A DNA stretch of 48,806 nt from Bacillota bacterium (GTDB lineage Bacteria > Bacillota > UBA4882 > UBA10575), in the NCBI GenBank assembly GCA_012838955.1, contig DUOH01000004.1, positions 1 through 48,806 on the forward strand, in the 5' to 3' direction. The translations under genes were made by a program, and so were the position numbers. Positions 4,002 to 18,395 of this stretch are shown here, piece after piece; the first letter of the stretch is position 1, and every line of letters begins with the position of its first letter. The notes below the pieces were generated by a model. The model had not been told where the DNA came from, made no database searches, and saw only the letters and a list, made by a program, of their open reading frames with translations.

Positions 4002-5639
4002 CTAAAAAGAAAGTTTCAACTCCTTAATGCGCTCCTCTTCCGACAAAACCCGCTTCCCGTCGGCGGAAAGAACGCGACAAGCCCCCTGCACGATACCGGT
4101 TTTGATCCATCCCTTCCCTTCGGGATTACCTTTTAACTGCGGCGCGTCCAGTAAACCGCTGTGCACGGCAGAGGCCAAAACCTCCGGTTCGGTAAACGGA
4201 TCGTCAGTGCTCTCCTCTCCCAGTTGAGCAAGGGAGTCCAGTAAGAAATCGGCCTCCGCAATCAACTCTTCTTTTCTGGCCAACACTTGCGGATCACAGC
4301 ATAAGTCCGCAAAGTCAAAGAGAGCGTTCTTAAAGACTCCTTGCACTATCCCACAACTTTCAATGATATCCTCCGGGGTGGCCGCATGATCGGCTTCACA
4401 GAAGGCTACCACATGGACGATCTCCGGTTGCAAAGCCAACCCCAGTAAAGTAGAAGTGGCTAGCTGACCTTTGGCCACGTGCGGCTTTACGGATAGACTG
4501 GCTAAACCGGCTCTGATCTCCCGGTGGATCCGAAAATCCGGACCGGCCAGGCGTTCCACCATCTCCAGCCCAGCCAGGGCTTTACCTAAATCCATCACTC
4601 CGCTAAGGCCCGGAGGGTTATTCAACATGATCTGCGCCACATAATCCCTGACACCCACTTGCTTGGCGTTATAAGCAGCCAAATAAAAGGCGGCCACCGC
4701 CACAGAGTCCGGTCCGCCCCGCAGGCTCCAGTGGTGGGCCTCGTTGACTTCCACCGGAATCCCCTGCCTGGCATACCAGGCCATGGCGGCTTGATTCTCC
4801 CTGATCGCCTCCGCCAAGGGCCTGTCCGAACGGCCGTCCAACCGACTGTACCAGAACAGAGGAATCGCCGCCCAGGCATTATTGATGGTGCGCGCCGCCA
4901 CCCGGCCCCAGTCCAAAAGATCCCTGGTCCCGCTATAGATTCGTAACAGGGGGTAATTACCGGTTCTGGAAGCCTCATAAATTGCCCTCAGGTCCGCCTC
5001 AGTCCGGACGGGAACACCGCCGGCGCCATCTTGCGTGGGATCCATCTCCTGTGGACGAAAGAAACTCTCTTGGGCGTTTTGGTCGGGACCAATGGAGATG
5101 ACATCCAATACCTCCGCTGCCGCCAGTCTTCTGACCCCCGCCAAGGTCTCTTCCAGGGTGGGAAGACCGAAGTGGTGCCGGATAATAGGATAAGGCCTGT
5201 TCTTTTCGATCCGTTCTAAAAGCGTATTACCGTAATCCCTCTTTTCCCTGACGGTCTCCTCTCCTTTGAGGAAAGCCACGATCTCCCGCTCTTCTTCTTC
5301 TCCGCTGAAGACCCGGAAGAAGAGTCCGCTCTCTTTCGCCACCTTCGCCACGGGCGGGGTTCCGCCGAAGAGCAGTTTTTTATGTGCAAGTCCCGCCTCG
5401 GCCAAGGCGTTCTTTAAGTCCTGAAATAACTTGGCGGCTACTTCCGGGGTTAGCCTGTAACTAAGCGCCAGATAAGTAGGGTCATCCTCCAGTAGCACAC
5501 CAATCAGATCGGAAAAGCCCAGGCTTGTTCCTAAAAATGTGCATTGGTAACCGCAGGCCTCGGCGAGGCGCAGAAAGTTCAGCACCCCGGCGACATGAAC
5601 ACAATGTCCGATGCTGGCGCCAATGATTCTTTTGGTCAT
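4002..5639 (-). CDS. B12-binding-domain/glutamate-mutase-E-like protein
   Basis: This 545-residue protein has two parts. Residues 1-120 resemble a cobalamin-binding Rossmann domain, with C13-V-H15-V-A-G18 in the place of DxHxxG, a later SYRL at the SxL position and LLFGG for the GG motif; the aspartate of the canonical motif is Cys here. Residues ~165-530 resemble the TIM-barrel catalytic subunit of glutamate/methylaspartate mutase (GAGGVPVRTEADL, IPVEVNEAHHWSLRGGPDS). An adenosylcobalamin-dependent mutase or a methyltransferase-like role is inferred; the substrate is unknown. ATG 5639 has GGAGGGAG upstream and overlaps the opine dehydrogenase stop by four bases (ATGA), so the two are translationally coupled. 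Confidence 0.72.
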   Translation of the reverse strand: MTKRIIGASIGHCVHVAGVLNFLRLAEACGYQCTFLGTSLGFSDLIGVLLEDDPTYLALSYRLTPEVAAKLFQDLKNALAEAGLAHKKLLFGGTPPVAKVAKESGLFFRVFSGEEEEREIVAFLKGEETVREKRDYGNTLLERIEKNRPYPIIRHHFGLPTLEETLAGVRRLAAAEVLDVISIGPDQNAQESFFRPQEMDPTQDGAGGVPVRTEADLRAIYEASRTGNYPLLRIYSGTRDLLDWGRVAARTINNAWAAIPLFWYSRLDGRSDRPLAEAIRENQAAMAWYARQGIPVEVNEAHHWSLRGGPDSVAVAAFYLAAYNAKQVGVRDYVAQIMLNNPPGLSGVMDLGKALAGLEMVERLAGPDFRIHREIRAGLASLSVKPHVAKGQLATSTLLGLALQPEIVHVVAFCEADHAATPEDIIESCGIVQGVFKNALFDFADLCCDPQVLARKEELIAEADFLLDSLAQLGEESTDDPFTEPEVLASAVHSGLLDAPQLKGNPEGKGWIKTGIVQGACRVLSADGKRVLSEEERIKELKLSF

Positions 5640-6763
5640 GTTGAATCTCCCTCCAACGCCAAGCGGCGAATTTCTGCTACGGAAAGCCCGGCCAAACCCA
5701 TCTTTGCGGTGGTCCGGCCTATACTCCAATAGTCGGTCTGGTTCATTAAGGAAGCCAAGTGAATGATATTATTAATAGTGGGGGTCGGTACCCCGAGCTG
5801 CTCGCCCAGGGAGGCGATGGGCACCAGACTCATGGGCACATCTTCCCATAAGTATCTGTGGTCCACTACGGAAGGGGCATTGATCCCTTTATAGCCGTGA
5901 TTATTCCGCATGGCGTCATACAGGTTTTTCCCGGCGGCGTCATAGGCCACATACAGCCATTCTCTGGCGGACATGGCCCGGATTCCCAAAGCCGCGGCCA
6001 CCGCCACTCTCTCCGCGTCCAACGCTTCGAGCACGTGCGCCACGGAACTGGTGACCCCTTCCATATAAAACTGGAACTCTCCTCTGGTTGATTCGATCCG
6101 AGCGGCATTTAAGACAGTCAAGGCCGGGTGGAAGATGGCTCCGATATTGTCCAGACTGGTTTTCAGGACATTATCCCCCGGTACGAACTGAGGAAAGACC
6201 GACCGCAGTTTCGTCACGAGTTCGGCGGTTCTCTGTCCGGGCAGGGCGGAAACGGGAATGGTATTCTTCAGACCAAAGATCTGCACTTGGGCCGGGTTAA
6301 TACTCCTGCTGGCGTAGAGCAGGGTTTGAGCTTCCCCGATCAAGACATCAGCGGTCACACCCATCTTCTTCCGGAGAATACTGTTCACTTCCAACGCCCC
6401 CCCGGTTCTACCGGGATTCAGCACGATGGCTTGCCCGTCCCGCAGGTAAGGGGCGATGGTCTCCGCGATGAAGCGATGACCGGTGGCCGGAACAACTACC
6501 ATTAAGATATCTGCATCACAAACGGCATCGGCAATATTCGAGGTGGCCAGGTTAATCTCGCCAAAGCCTTCAATGATCCCGGACAATTCGATCCCCCCCA
6601 TCATTTGGATGGGGGTAATCCGCGATTCTGAACGGTTAAAGAGGTTCACTTTATAACCCATCAGTCCGAGGTGACCGGCCATGGCCAAACCGCCGTGACC
6701 GGCGCCTAATACGCAGAAACGGGGTTGAGGGCCGATTTCATGGTCGTGAAATTCTTTGTTCAT
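5636..6763 (-). CDS. NAD/NADP octopine/nopaline dehydrogenase family protein
   Basis: Members of this family reductively join an amino acid to a 2-oxo acid through an imine, or run the reverse. The 375-residue protein opens with the nucleotide-binding GAGHGG after a beta-strand (RFCVLGAGHGGLAM). It has NPGRTGGALEV in the Rossmann domain and, in the C-terminal helical domain, NIGAIFHPALTVLN, which carries the conserved His of the opine dehydrogenase domain. The ATG at 6763 follows GGAGGGTG at ideal spacing; the longer frame to 6814 only adds an untypical basic stretch. It is the first gene of a two-gene operon and is preceded by a ~258-nt leader with an intrinsic terminator. The substrates cannot be read from sequence. 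Confidence 0.85.
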   Translation of the reverse strand: MNKEFHDHEIGPQPRFCVLGAGHGGLAMAGHLGLMGYKVNLFNRSESRITPIQMMGGIELSGIIEGFGEINLATSNIADAVCDADILMVVVPATGHRFIAETIAPYLRDGQAIVLNPGRTGGALEVNSILRKKMGVTADVLIGEAQTLLYASRSINPAQVQIFGLKNTIPVSALPGQRTAELVTKLRSVFPQFVPGDNVLKTSLDNIGAIFHPALTVLNAARIESTRGEFQFYMEGVTSSVAHVLEALDAERVAVAAALGIRAMSAREWLYVAYDAAGKNLYDAMRNNHGYKGINAPSVVDHRYLWEDVPMSLVPIASLGEQLGVPTPTINNIIHLASLMNQTDYWSIGRTTAKMGLAGLSVAEIRRLALEGDST

Positions 6764-6903
6764 TGCTTTCACCCTCCTTCTGATAGCATGTCTAAACAAA
6801 AAAGTAAAAAACATAGCCCCTTTTAGGACTATTCAACTAATTATATATCTAGAACGTCCAAGTTTTTACCGGTTTAAGCGGCGGGCTAAACCTGAAAACC
6901 GGG

Positions 6904-7027: not shown

Positions 7028-7056
7028 ATTATACTTTATTTCCGTTCCTTTGTCTA
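7028..7056 (-). promoter_or_regulatory. Sigma-A promoter of the opine dehydrogenase/B12 protein operon
   Basis: Read on the minus strand, TAGACA (7051-7056) and TATAAT (7028-7033) are separated by exactly 17 bp, close to consensus. Transcription would start near 7021 and give a long leader of about 258 nt to the ATG at 6763. The stretch 6764-7181 between genes is otherwise AT-rich and holds no ORF that I can support. Confidence 0.72.
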
Positions 7057-7181: not shown

Positions 7182-9305
7182 TTAGAGTAGATTCGTTAAG
7201 GAGTTCGCCAGAATAAAGGCGGCAAAAACTACGGAAACCATTGAGGTCAGCTTGATCAGGATATTCAGTGAAGGCCCGGCCGTATCTTTAAAAGGGTCAC
7301 CAACCGTATCGCCGATTACAGCCGCCTTATGGGCGTCCGAACCTTTGCCGCCGTGGTTACCCTCTTCAATATATTTTTTAGCATTATCCCAGCTTCCGCC
7401 TGAGTTAGCCATCATTACCGCTAAAATAAACCCGGAAACCGTGGCCCCGGCCAGTAAACCGACTACTCCGTTGACGCCTAAAAGCAGACCAACGACGATC
7501 GGGGCCAGAATCGCAGTAAGCGCCGGTAAAATCATCTCTTTCTGAGCGGCCTTTGTGCATATGTCTACACTGGCCGCATAGTCCGGTTTGGCCTTTCCTT
7601 CCATAATCCCGGCAATCTCTCTAAATTGCCGACGCACCTCTTCCACGATTTTCTGGGCGGAACGGCCTACTGCGCTCATGGTCATCGCGGAAAAGACATA
7701 GGGCATCATACCGCCGATGAAGAGTCCGATCAGAACCATGGGATTAGTTATGCGCAGATCAAACCGGAAAGAGGGATCAATCATCCGTACCTGCTCTGTA
7801 AAGGCGGCGATTAGCGCCAAGGCAGTCAGTGCCGCAGAACCGATGGCAAACCCCTTCCCGGTGGCCGCCGTGGTATTGCCCAGGGCATCAAGGGCATCCG
7901 TCCGCTGCCTAACCTCAGGCGGTAACCCTGCCATCTCCGCAATTCCGCCGGCATTATCGGCGATGGGTCCATAGGCGTCGGTGGCGAGGGTAATCCCTAA
8001 AGTGGAGAGCATGCCCACTGCCGAGAGGGCAATTCCGTATAATCCGAGTTCAAACTCTCCTCCGCCAGCCAGAAAGTAACTGGCAAAGATGGCAACCCCT
8101 ACGATGATTACGGGCAGGGCGGTGGAGAACATCCCGGCCGACAGGCCGCTGATGATGACCGTAGCCGGTCCGGTGACTGCGGTGGCGGATACACTCCGGG
8201 TGGGCTGATACCCGGCTGAAGTATAGTACTCAGTGGCGCGGCCGATTAATACCCCAGCCACCAAACCGGTGACTGTGGCAAAGAATAATCCGATATACTC
8301 AAGGCCCAGAGTGAAATAGATGACGAAGAACCCGCCGATCATGACCAACAGCGCGCTGATATTGACCCCCCTCCGGAGGGCGCCAAGTAAAGCGGACTGA
8401 TCAACCTTTTCTTCCGTTCGCACAAAAAAGGTGCCGATGATGGAGGCCAAGACCCCGATGGCCGCCAAGATCATGGGAAGCAAGGCTCCACGTAACTGGA
8501 GTCCGCCGGTGAAAGCCGCGGTGGATAGGGCGGAAGCCGCCACAATGGAACCGACATACGATTCGAAGAGATCCGCGCCCATCCCGGCCACATCCCCGAC
8601 GTTGTCTCCTACATTATCCGCGATTACCGCCGGATTTCTCGGATCATCCTCCGGGATACCGGCTTCAACCTTTCCCACCAAATCAGCGCCGACGTCCGCA
8701 GCTTTCGTATAGATTCCCCCGCCCACTCTGGCAAAGAGCGCCATCGAACTGGCGCCCATGCCGAAGTTCAACATAATGCTGGTGATCTCGACAATCCCTT
8801 TATCCAGATACTTCAGAAGATAAAACCAGGCGCTTAAGTGCAGCAGACCCAGGCCGACCACGACTATACCCATGACTGCCCCGCTCTGGAAAGCCACCCG
8901 TAAGCCCGAGTTCAAACTCTCTCTGGCGGCATTGGCGGTTCTGCTGTTGGCCATCGTGGCGGTGGTCATGCCGATAAACCCGGCTAAGGCGGAGAAGAGC
9001 CCGCCGGTAAGAAAAGCGAAGGGTACAAAGATGGAGATTAAAGGCTGCCCCTTACTGTCCCGGAGAAAATGGAGGATGATTAAGATGACAAACATCACTG
9101 CAAAAAAGAGGGCTACTCCTTTGTATTGCCTACGCAGGTAAGCCCGGGCGCCGTCGCGAATCGCTCCGGACACCTCTTTCATCAGGTCGGCGCCTTCCTC
9201 ATGCTGTCTGACTTTGATGTAGAGATACGCGGCGAAGGCTAACGCTAATAAGGAACCCACCGGCACCAGGAGAAATAAGGAATTAACCATCGCGTCATTA
9301 AGCAT
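7182..9305 (-). CDS. hppA: Membrane-bound K+-dependent pyrophosphatase (ion-pumping)
   Basis: This enzyme couples pyrophosphate hydrolysis to H+ and/or Na+ export. The 707-residue, ~16-helix protein has the substrate-site motifs [40 protein letters not shown] and, near the C-terminus, [16 protein letters not shown]. The segment [10 protein letters not shown] has Ala at the position that is Lys in K+-independent enzymes, so this is predicted to be the K+-dependent class. Whether it moves H+ or Na+ is not decided here. ATG 9305 is preferred over GTG 9314 because GGGGAG lies 10 nt upstream. The 150 nt upstream, to atpZ, hold a small AAGCA/TGCTT inverted repeat. Confidence 0.96.
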
Positions 9306-9455
9306 ATTAAGCACACTCCCCTCAGAATTTGATAATCTCCATAATCTGCTGAACTAGAAGAAAACCGATGAATAATATATAAGCACACTGCTTAAAAATA
9401 TTACACTCTTCTTCCCGTTTATGCTCCGGCCTCCCTCGGGGAGACGGGCATCCGG

Positions 9456-18130: not shown

Positions 18131-18395
18131 AAAAAAGCCTTCGTCTGTTCAGAGACGAAGGCGTTCTTCGCGGTTCCACTCTGCTTGGATCGAGACATAC
18201 CGATCCCCCTTAGCATCGCATCAAAGCATCCACTGTAACGGGCTAGCCCGGCCGGAGATACTGCAGAATTCCCCCCGGCTGCTCAGGAAGGCACTTCATT
18301 CACGATTCCGGGAGAACGCTTTCAGCCGGTGACGTTCTCTCTCTTGGCCATCCTCGTAAACTACTCTTTCCGTCAACGCATTTCATATTATTGTT
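18131..18395 (-). promoter_or_regulatory. T-box riboswitch (Cys-specific) controlling cysE-cysS
   Basis: The minus strand carries the T-box motif GTGGAACCGCG (about 18169-18179), followed by a terminator with a perfect 10-bp stem (GCCTTCGTCT/AGACGAAGGC) and six U. The bulge sequence UGGA (18175-18178) pairs with UCCA, matching a tRNA with discriminator U73, as in tRNA-Cys. Stem I has AGTA and GAA loop-E elements, and the 3' side of the specifier loop holds UGC (18291-18293), a Cys codon. Uncharged tRNA-Cys should favour read-through into cysE-cysS. A TATAAT (18402-18407) sits just upstream, but the -35 is poor. Confidence 0.9.

Follow-up and report, generated by a model that had tools for sequence, protein, structure and literature searches.

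The window analysed here, a stretch of 48,806 nucleotides from a Bacillota genome (assembly GCA_012838955.1, contig DUOH01000004.1), harbours on its minus strand a gene for an opine dehydrogenase (ODH) and, overlapping its 3' end, a gene for a B12-dependent mutase-like protein. The features of this locus are as follows.

4002..5639, minus strand: B12-dependent mutase-like gene, 545 amino acids, ATG start, assigned by fold and motif comparison
5636..5639, minus strand: ATGA overlap of the ODH stop codon (TGA) and the mutase start codon (ATG), read directly from the sequence
5636..6763, minus strand: ODH gene, 375 amino acids, ATG start, with NAD(P)-binding and Octopine_DH domains
6813..6832, minus strand: terminator-like stem and T-run within the leader, found by sequence scan, no conservation seen
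7028..7056, minus strand: candidate sigma-70-type promoter of the ODH-mutase pair, TAGACA-17-TATAAT, 11/12 matches, inferred from a motif scan

The coordinates and the ATGA overlap given in a preliminary description of this DNA proved exact, and a Shine-Dalgarno-like sequence, GGAGGGAG, was read immediately 5' of the mutase ATG. The same description had placed the pair behind one regulated promoter. The candidate at 7056-7028 is weak when taken alone, since three sigma-70-like sites were found by the scan where 2.5 were expected; similar TTRGACA...TATAAT-like sites were recognized by eye 5' of the ODH gene in four relatives (L041, L044, L045 and L059). The site is the likely promoter of the pair; for the proposed regulation the data speak neither way: searches of the leader for a riboswitch or attenuator returned no Rfam element worth keeping, with a single snoRNA match far under the cut-off, and the leaders of relatives revealed no visible conservation, the terminator-like stem included.

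A membrane-bound pyrophosphatase-like gene (7182-9314, minus strand) lies directly 5' of the leader, and 63 bp past the mutase stop codon a series of V-ATPase subunit genes begins on the same strand. A functional link of the V-ATPase to the pair was considered and rejected; the adjacency was found in the window's own family only and is not kept in distant relatives, hence it was treated as local context. Elsewhere in the window, a T-box leader (18148-18385, minus strand, 115 bits) precedes genes encoding a hexapeptide-repeat transferase and cysteinyl-tRNA synthetase, and looks like an ordinary cysteine T-box.

The ODH matched the Octopine_DH family (PF02317) with an E-value of 2e-52 and 177.6 bits, relative to a curated cut-off of 30, carries a Rossmann NAD(P) domain, and is encoded by the single PF02317 gene of the window genome. 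It shares 42.6% identity with the solved Arthrobacter ODH (ArODH, CENDH; PDB 1bg6), which was also the best fold match (TM 0.89) to an AlphaFold2 model of the window protein (pLDDT 93.5). Its catalytic set comprises the His212/Asp308 dyad, Arg303 and Asn206, of which H212, D308 and R303 align with H202, D297 and R292 of 1bg6 and are invariant in 55/55 mutase-linked ODHs. Residues H212 and R324 of octopine dehydrogenase are the aligned counterparts for these catalytic positions (PMC2924402). The window ODH therefore shares with ArODH both its fold and an intact His-Asp catalytic dyad. At Arg44, a position tied to NADPH acceptance, 45 of the 55 mutase-linked ODHs have Arg and six have Lys. This residue corresponds to cofactor position 35 of ArODH, where most of the hot-spring mODHs also have Arg as published (PMC10787698); position 35 of ArODH itself is given as Ala in that paper and is Ile in the PDB sequence of 1bg6.

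The substrate of the ODH can be predicted from two further residues. The hot-spring mODHs carry Arg and Gly where ArODH, which prefers neutral amino acids, has Ala111 and Asn198, and favour L-Asp, whilst also accepting L-Glu, with pyruvate; exchanging the two pairs of residues flips the Phe/Asp preference in both directions, a specificity signature validated in one enzyme pair only (PMC10787698). The Arg119 and Gly208 residues of the window ODH align exactly with Ala111 and Asn198 of ArODH, and were present in all 55 mutase-linked ODHs. By comparison, only six of 20 control ODHs that are not located beside the mutase had the Arg and Gly combination, the others having Ser, Ala or other residues together with, in most instances, Asn. 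It is therefore predicted with some confidence that the mutase-linked ODHs make or split N-(1-carboxyethyl)-L-aspartate or N-(1-carboxyethyl)-L-glutamate from pyruvate and the acidic amino acid, which sharpens the earlier suggestion that this enzyme handles an N-substituted amino acid.

Arg/Gly-type ODHs were also found adjoining a symporter gene at three loci of a single family, in genomes with no mutase. At each of these (L201:4586-7991, L199:4857-8218 and L213:3516-6995) the ODH gene has an RpiR regulator gene on one side and one for a GltS-like symporter on the other, and two of the three symporters exceeded the Pfam cut-off for Na+/glutamate symporters. These loci may encode an uptake system of their own, for opines or for glutamate.

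Sequence searches with the second protein of the pair were far less informative. Pfam and NCBIfam returned a sub-threshold B12-binding match only, with no match to the glutamate mutase family PF06368 at E<=1, MtgC was matched weakly, and no significant match was retrieved from the PDB with phmmer; with these searches near-silent, a fold comparison was needed. An AlphaFold2 model built from 21 native sequences (pLDDT 90.1) was most similar in Foldseek to the E subunit of glutamate mutase (1cb7_B, 6e-16), followed by OraE, KamD and MCM; a BFVD fold search gave nothing useful. The protein was modelled with a B12-binding Rossmann domain at residues 1-130, in which CxHVAG replaces the DxHxxG motif, and a GlmE-like TIM barrel at residues of about 140-545, and so folds as had been anticipated in the preliminary description. 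The B12 domain matched those of GlmS and 2-hydroxyisobutyryl-CoA mutase in Foldseek, as well as MttC-type proteins, and in hhalign it matched the B12 domain of OraE with 94% probability. The relationship to GlmE was likewise supported by hhalign (93% over 350 columns, relative to 0.1% for the unrelated ODH family) and by direct PF06368 matches to several orthologues, that of G036 scoring 27.0 bits against a cut-off of 26.6 and the others being weaker.

Comparison of 58 mutase sequences provided a view of the putative active site. Within the cobalt-binding motif, His15 and Gly18 were each conserved in 58/58 sequences, whilst residue 13, the Asp of DxHxxG, was Cys in 53 and Asp in five; such a change from Asp to Cys beside the cobalt ligand is unusual. 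Glutamate mutase binds glutamate by an arginine claw of R66, R100 and R149 (PMC10947579), which in the hhalign alignment with GlmE (93% probability) corresponded to His156, Gln190 and Tyr235 of the window protein, each present in 58/58 sequences. A further five arginines, Arg154, Arg233, Arg270, Arg307 and Arg376, were also invariant. This combination of invariant arginines with invariant residues other than the claw points to an active site that would be anion-binding yet distinct from that of glutamate mutase. The PLP-binding lysine of OraE is K629 (PMC4256349); the region surrounding it fell in an alignment gap relative to the window protein, and no invariant lysine was found within residues 1-130. 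Taken from the model and these alignments, the B12 protein is predicted with some confidence to be a PLP-independent AdoCbl mutase.

The preliminary description had coupled an ODH relative to a fused B12-domain/glutamate-mutase-E-like protein, and the profile, fold and adjacency data agree in this. It named two results that would overturn it, absence of the pair from other genomes and failure of the large protein to fold as a TIM barrel with a B12 domain, and neither was obtained. In a sample of the phylum, the mutase was encoded by 87 of 398 genomes (about a fifth), of which 86 also encoded an ODH, relative to 33 of the 311 mutase-free genomes (Fisher p about 3e-58, a value inflated by relatedness). 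The sole exception, G190, harboured a mutase fragment only. Amongst 61 relatives of the window genome, all 27 with the mutase (a count that leaves out a spurious match in G033) had an Octopine_DH gene, compared with four of the other 34. Both genes were found in three genomes of family f5 (G021, G025 and G028), those of G025 being on separate contigs, and neither in the seven other genomes of this family. Since ORF calling had mis-called several genes in GC-rich loci, adjacency was recounted using tblastn. Across 62 loci, the ODH gene directly preceded the mutase gene in 54, at a distance of no more than 135 bp, and directly followed it in two; in a further two it lay upstream with a MutL gene in between, and in four it was missing from the locus, so that the pair is conserved in its neighbourhood at 58/62 loci. 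A mutase lineage of only about 30% identity (L158 and L159) still keeps the two genes side by side, though its ODH is more distant and octopine-dehydrogenase-like. A mutase member was also retrieved from an Armatimonadetes-labelled record, hence the pair spans more than one phylum. The ODH and the fused AdoCbl-mutase-type protein are thus co-inherited and usually adjacent.

B12 mutases are serviced by an accessory protein of the GlmL type, MutL. A gene for a GlmL-type MutL adjoins the pair at five loci (L052, L169, L185, L187 and L188), and in two families the mutase itself carries MutL as a C-terminal fusion (L158:1739-5380, 1214 amino acids; L159:6306-10007, 1233 amino acids). These neighbours and fusions provide the best evidence that the protein would be a radical mutase requiring maintenance, and favour AdoCbl radical chemistry over methyl transfer. 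The earlier proposal that the protein could rearrange or methylate an amino acid skeleton is accordingly retained in its first half, given the mutase-type fold, the MutL neighbours and the MutL fusion, the same evidence speaking against methylation.

At the genome level, MutL was present in 66 of the 87 mutase genomes and in 83 of the 311 others, and 21 of the 87 were without it; G006 and G016 had MutL with neither the pair nor a mutase of the families searched. The window genome encodes one MutL, unlinked to the pair and in a housekeeping setting between uvrD/amidase and fumarase/RNase PH genes (G000:C5:33431-34789, L063). Searches of this genome for PF06368, PF01642 and PF09043 (glutamate mutase, MCM and KamD/OraE) retrieved no mutase, leaving that of the pair as the only candidate MutL partner among those families. 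Phylogeny did not tie this MutL to the pair, as it groups with GlmE-linked MutLs and not with those adjacent to the pair.

Genes for ligases were a further recurrent feature of these loci. AsnB-type (asparagine synthetase) genes occurred close to the mutase gene at 10 loci, drawn from nine families, Ddl-type (D-Ala-D-Ala ligase) genes close to the ODH gene at 10 loci, from several families, and MurD-like ligase genes at two loci; amongst the loci read, the neighbours of the pair included no recurrent transporter, ammonia lyase or acyl-CoA gene. These ligases are biosynthetic, several of them taking Asp, Glu or products of these as substrates, which is consistent with acidic amino acids as a common theme without proving it. 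With AsnB- and Ddl-type ligases adjacent, the role of the module is more likely to be biosynthetic than degradative.

The reading that we prefer, and whose chances we would put at roughly even, is that the ODH and the B12 mutase form a two-enzyme metabolic module acting on the same metabolite, with the mutase most simply acting on the opine. In such a module, the ODH would couple pyruvate to L-Asp or L-Glu with NADPH (or NADH) to yield N-(1-carboxyethyl)-L-Asp or -L-Glu, or catalyse the reverse. The mutase, holding AdoCbl via His15, would form at the mouth of its barrel a 5'-deoxyadenosyl radical and would rearrange, without PLP, an acidic amino acid derivative gripped by the invariant Arg and His residues, and it would be maintained by a GlmL-type MutL ATPase. 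One metabolite would be shared by both enzymes, and an N-carboxyethyl amino acid is the simplest candidate for the mutase substrate, though that the mutase works on the opine itself is a guess. The product would probably be consumed in several lineages by an asparagine synthetase or a Ddl-type enzyme. A more far-reaching version, which we offer only tentatively, is that an undescribed AdoCbl mutase rearranges the carbon skeleton of the opine to yield new branched amino-polycarboxylates, which would go on to be incorporated by amidation or ligation into a cell-wall component, an osmolyte or a metal-binding compound.

The order of the two enzymes could also be the reverse, with the mutase converting a free acidic amino acid into a branched or altered aspartate-like product that the ODH then N-alkylates with pyruvate. 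In favour of this order, the closest fold is that of GlmE, which makes an analogue of aspartate, 3-methylaspartate, and the Arg/Gly-type ODHs prefer Asp as their substrate (PMC10787698). Nevertheless, invariant residues of other kinds (H156, Q190 and Y235) take the aligned positions of all three claw arginines of GlmE, making free glutamate an unlikely substrate, and the ODH gene almost always comes first, albeit a weak argument; we consider this order somewhat unlikely. We find it unlikely, too, that the module is degradative, with an N-(1-carboxyalkyl) amino acid being imported and oxidized by the ODH, and the released acidic amino acid skeleton being passed on by the mutase to fermentation, as happens in the methylaspartate or ornithine pathways. 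ODH reactions are reversible, B12 mutases of glutamate-mutase-like fold serve amino acid fermentation, the hosts are mostly anaerobe-type genomes, and Arg/Gly-type ODHs lie by a symporter gene in the three mutase-free loci; yet it is biosynthetic ligases, and not transporter, ammonia lyase or acyl-CoA genes, that recur beside the pair.

It is highly improbable that the B12 domain serves as the methyl carrier of an amino acid or methylamine methyltransferase barrel, a possibility to which the matches of the isolated domain to MttC-type proteins, and weakly to MtgC, would point, as the barrel matches glutamate mutase, OraE, KamD and MCM, and MutL occurs as both neighbour and fusion partner. The fold match and the weak PF06368 matches would equally suit a plain glutamate mutase with a chance neighbour, but the claw residues are replaced, the B12 domain is fused and N-terminal, a true GlmE is encoded by a separate gene in some of the same genomes (G004, G005, G021, G025 and G051), and coupling to the ODH is far above chance, such that this explanation is barely credible.

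The mutase of the preferred two-enzyme module resembles glutamate mutase (GlmE/GlmS; 1cb7, 6h9e) in its TIM barrel, B12 Rossmann domain, probable MutL/GlmL partner and absence of a PLP lysine, but differs in being a single chain with an N-terminal B12 domain and a replaced claw, and in its constant association with an ODH; moreover, no methylaspartate ammonia lyase was seen beside mutases of the window type. With D-ornithine 4,5-aminomutase OraE (3kow) and lysine 5,6-aminomutase KamD (1xrs) it shares the fold, its B12 domain being most OraE-like by hhalign, and OraE also has MutL genes as neighbours. In the OraE and KamD pathways the mutase step is followed by that of a dehydrogenase, but these dehydrogenases are unrelated to the ODH, and the B12 domain is C-terminal in those enzymes rather than N-terminal. 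In IcmF-type proteins a B12 mutase is fused to its G-protein chaperone; the fusions of L158 and L159 follow the same principle, with MutL/GlmL as the partner in place of a MeaB-type G protein. The dehydrogenases of opine metallophore biosynthesis (staphylopine, pseudopaline and yersinopine) have opine chemistry and the overall fold in common with the window ODH at a lower structural match, but neither a nicotianamine-synthase-like gene nor a dedicated transporter was seen by the pair.

In agreement with the earlier remark that the pair has no assigned function, no paper on an ODH paired with a B12 mutase was found in the open-access literature. The pathway appears to be undescribed.

It is seldom that a new radical B12 mutase reaction comes to light, and every one known so far defines a pathway. 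The mutase family described here is widespread, has its own MutL fusion and is joined by a near-obligatory partner of predictable substrate, by which an unassigned B12 reaction becomes directly testable with two proteins and few substrates. The Asp-preferring hot-spring mODHs were studied without gene context (PMC10787698), and the pair is a likely physiological home for these enzymes.
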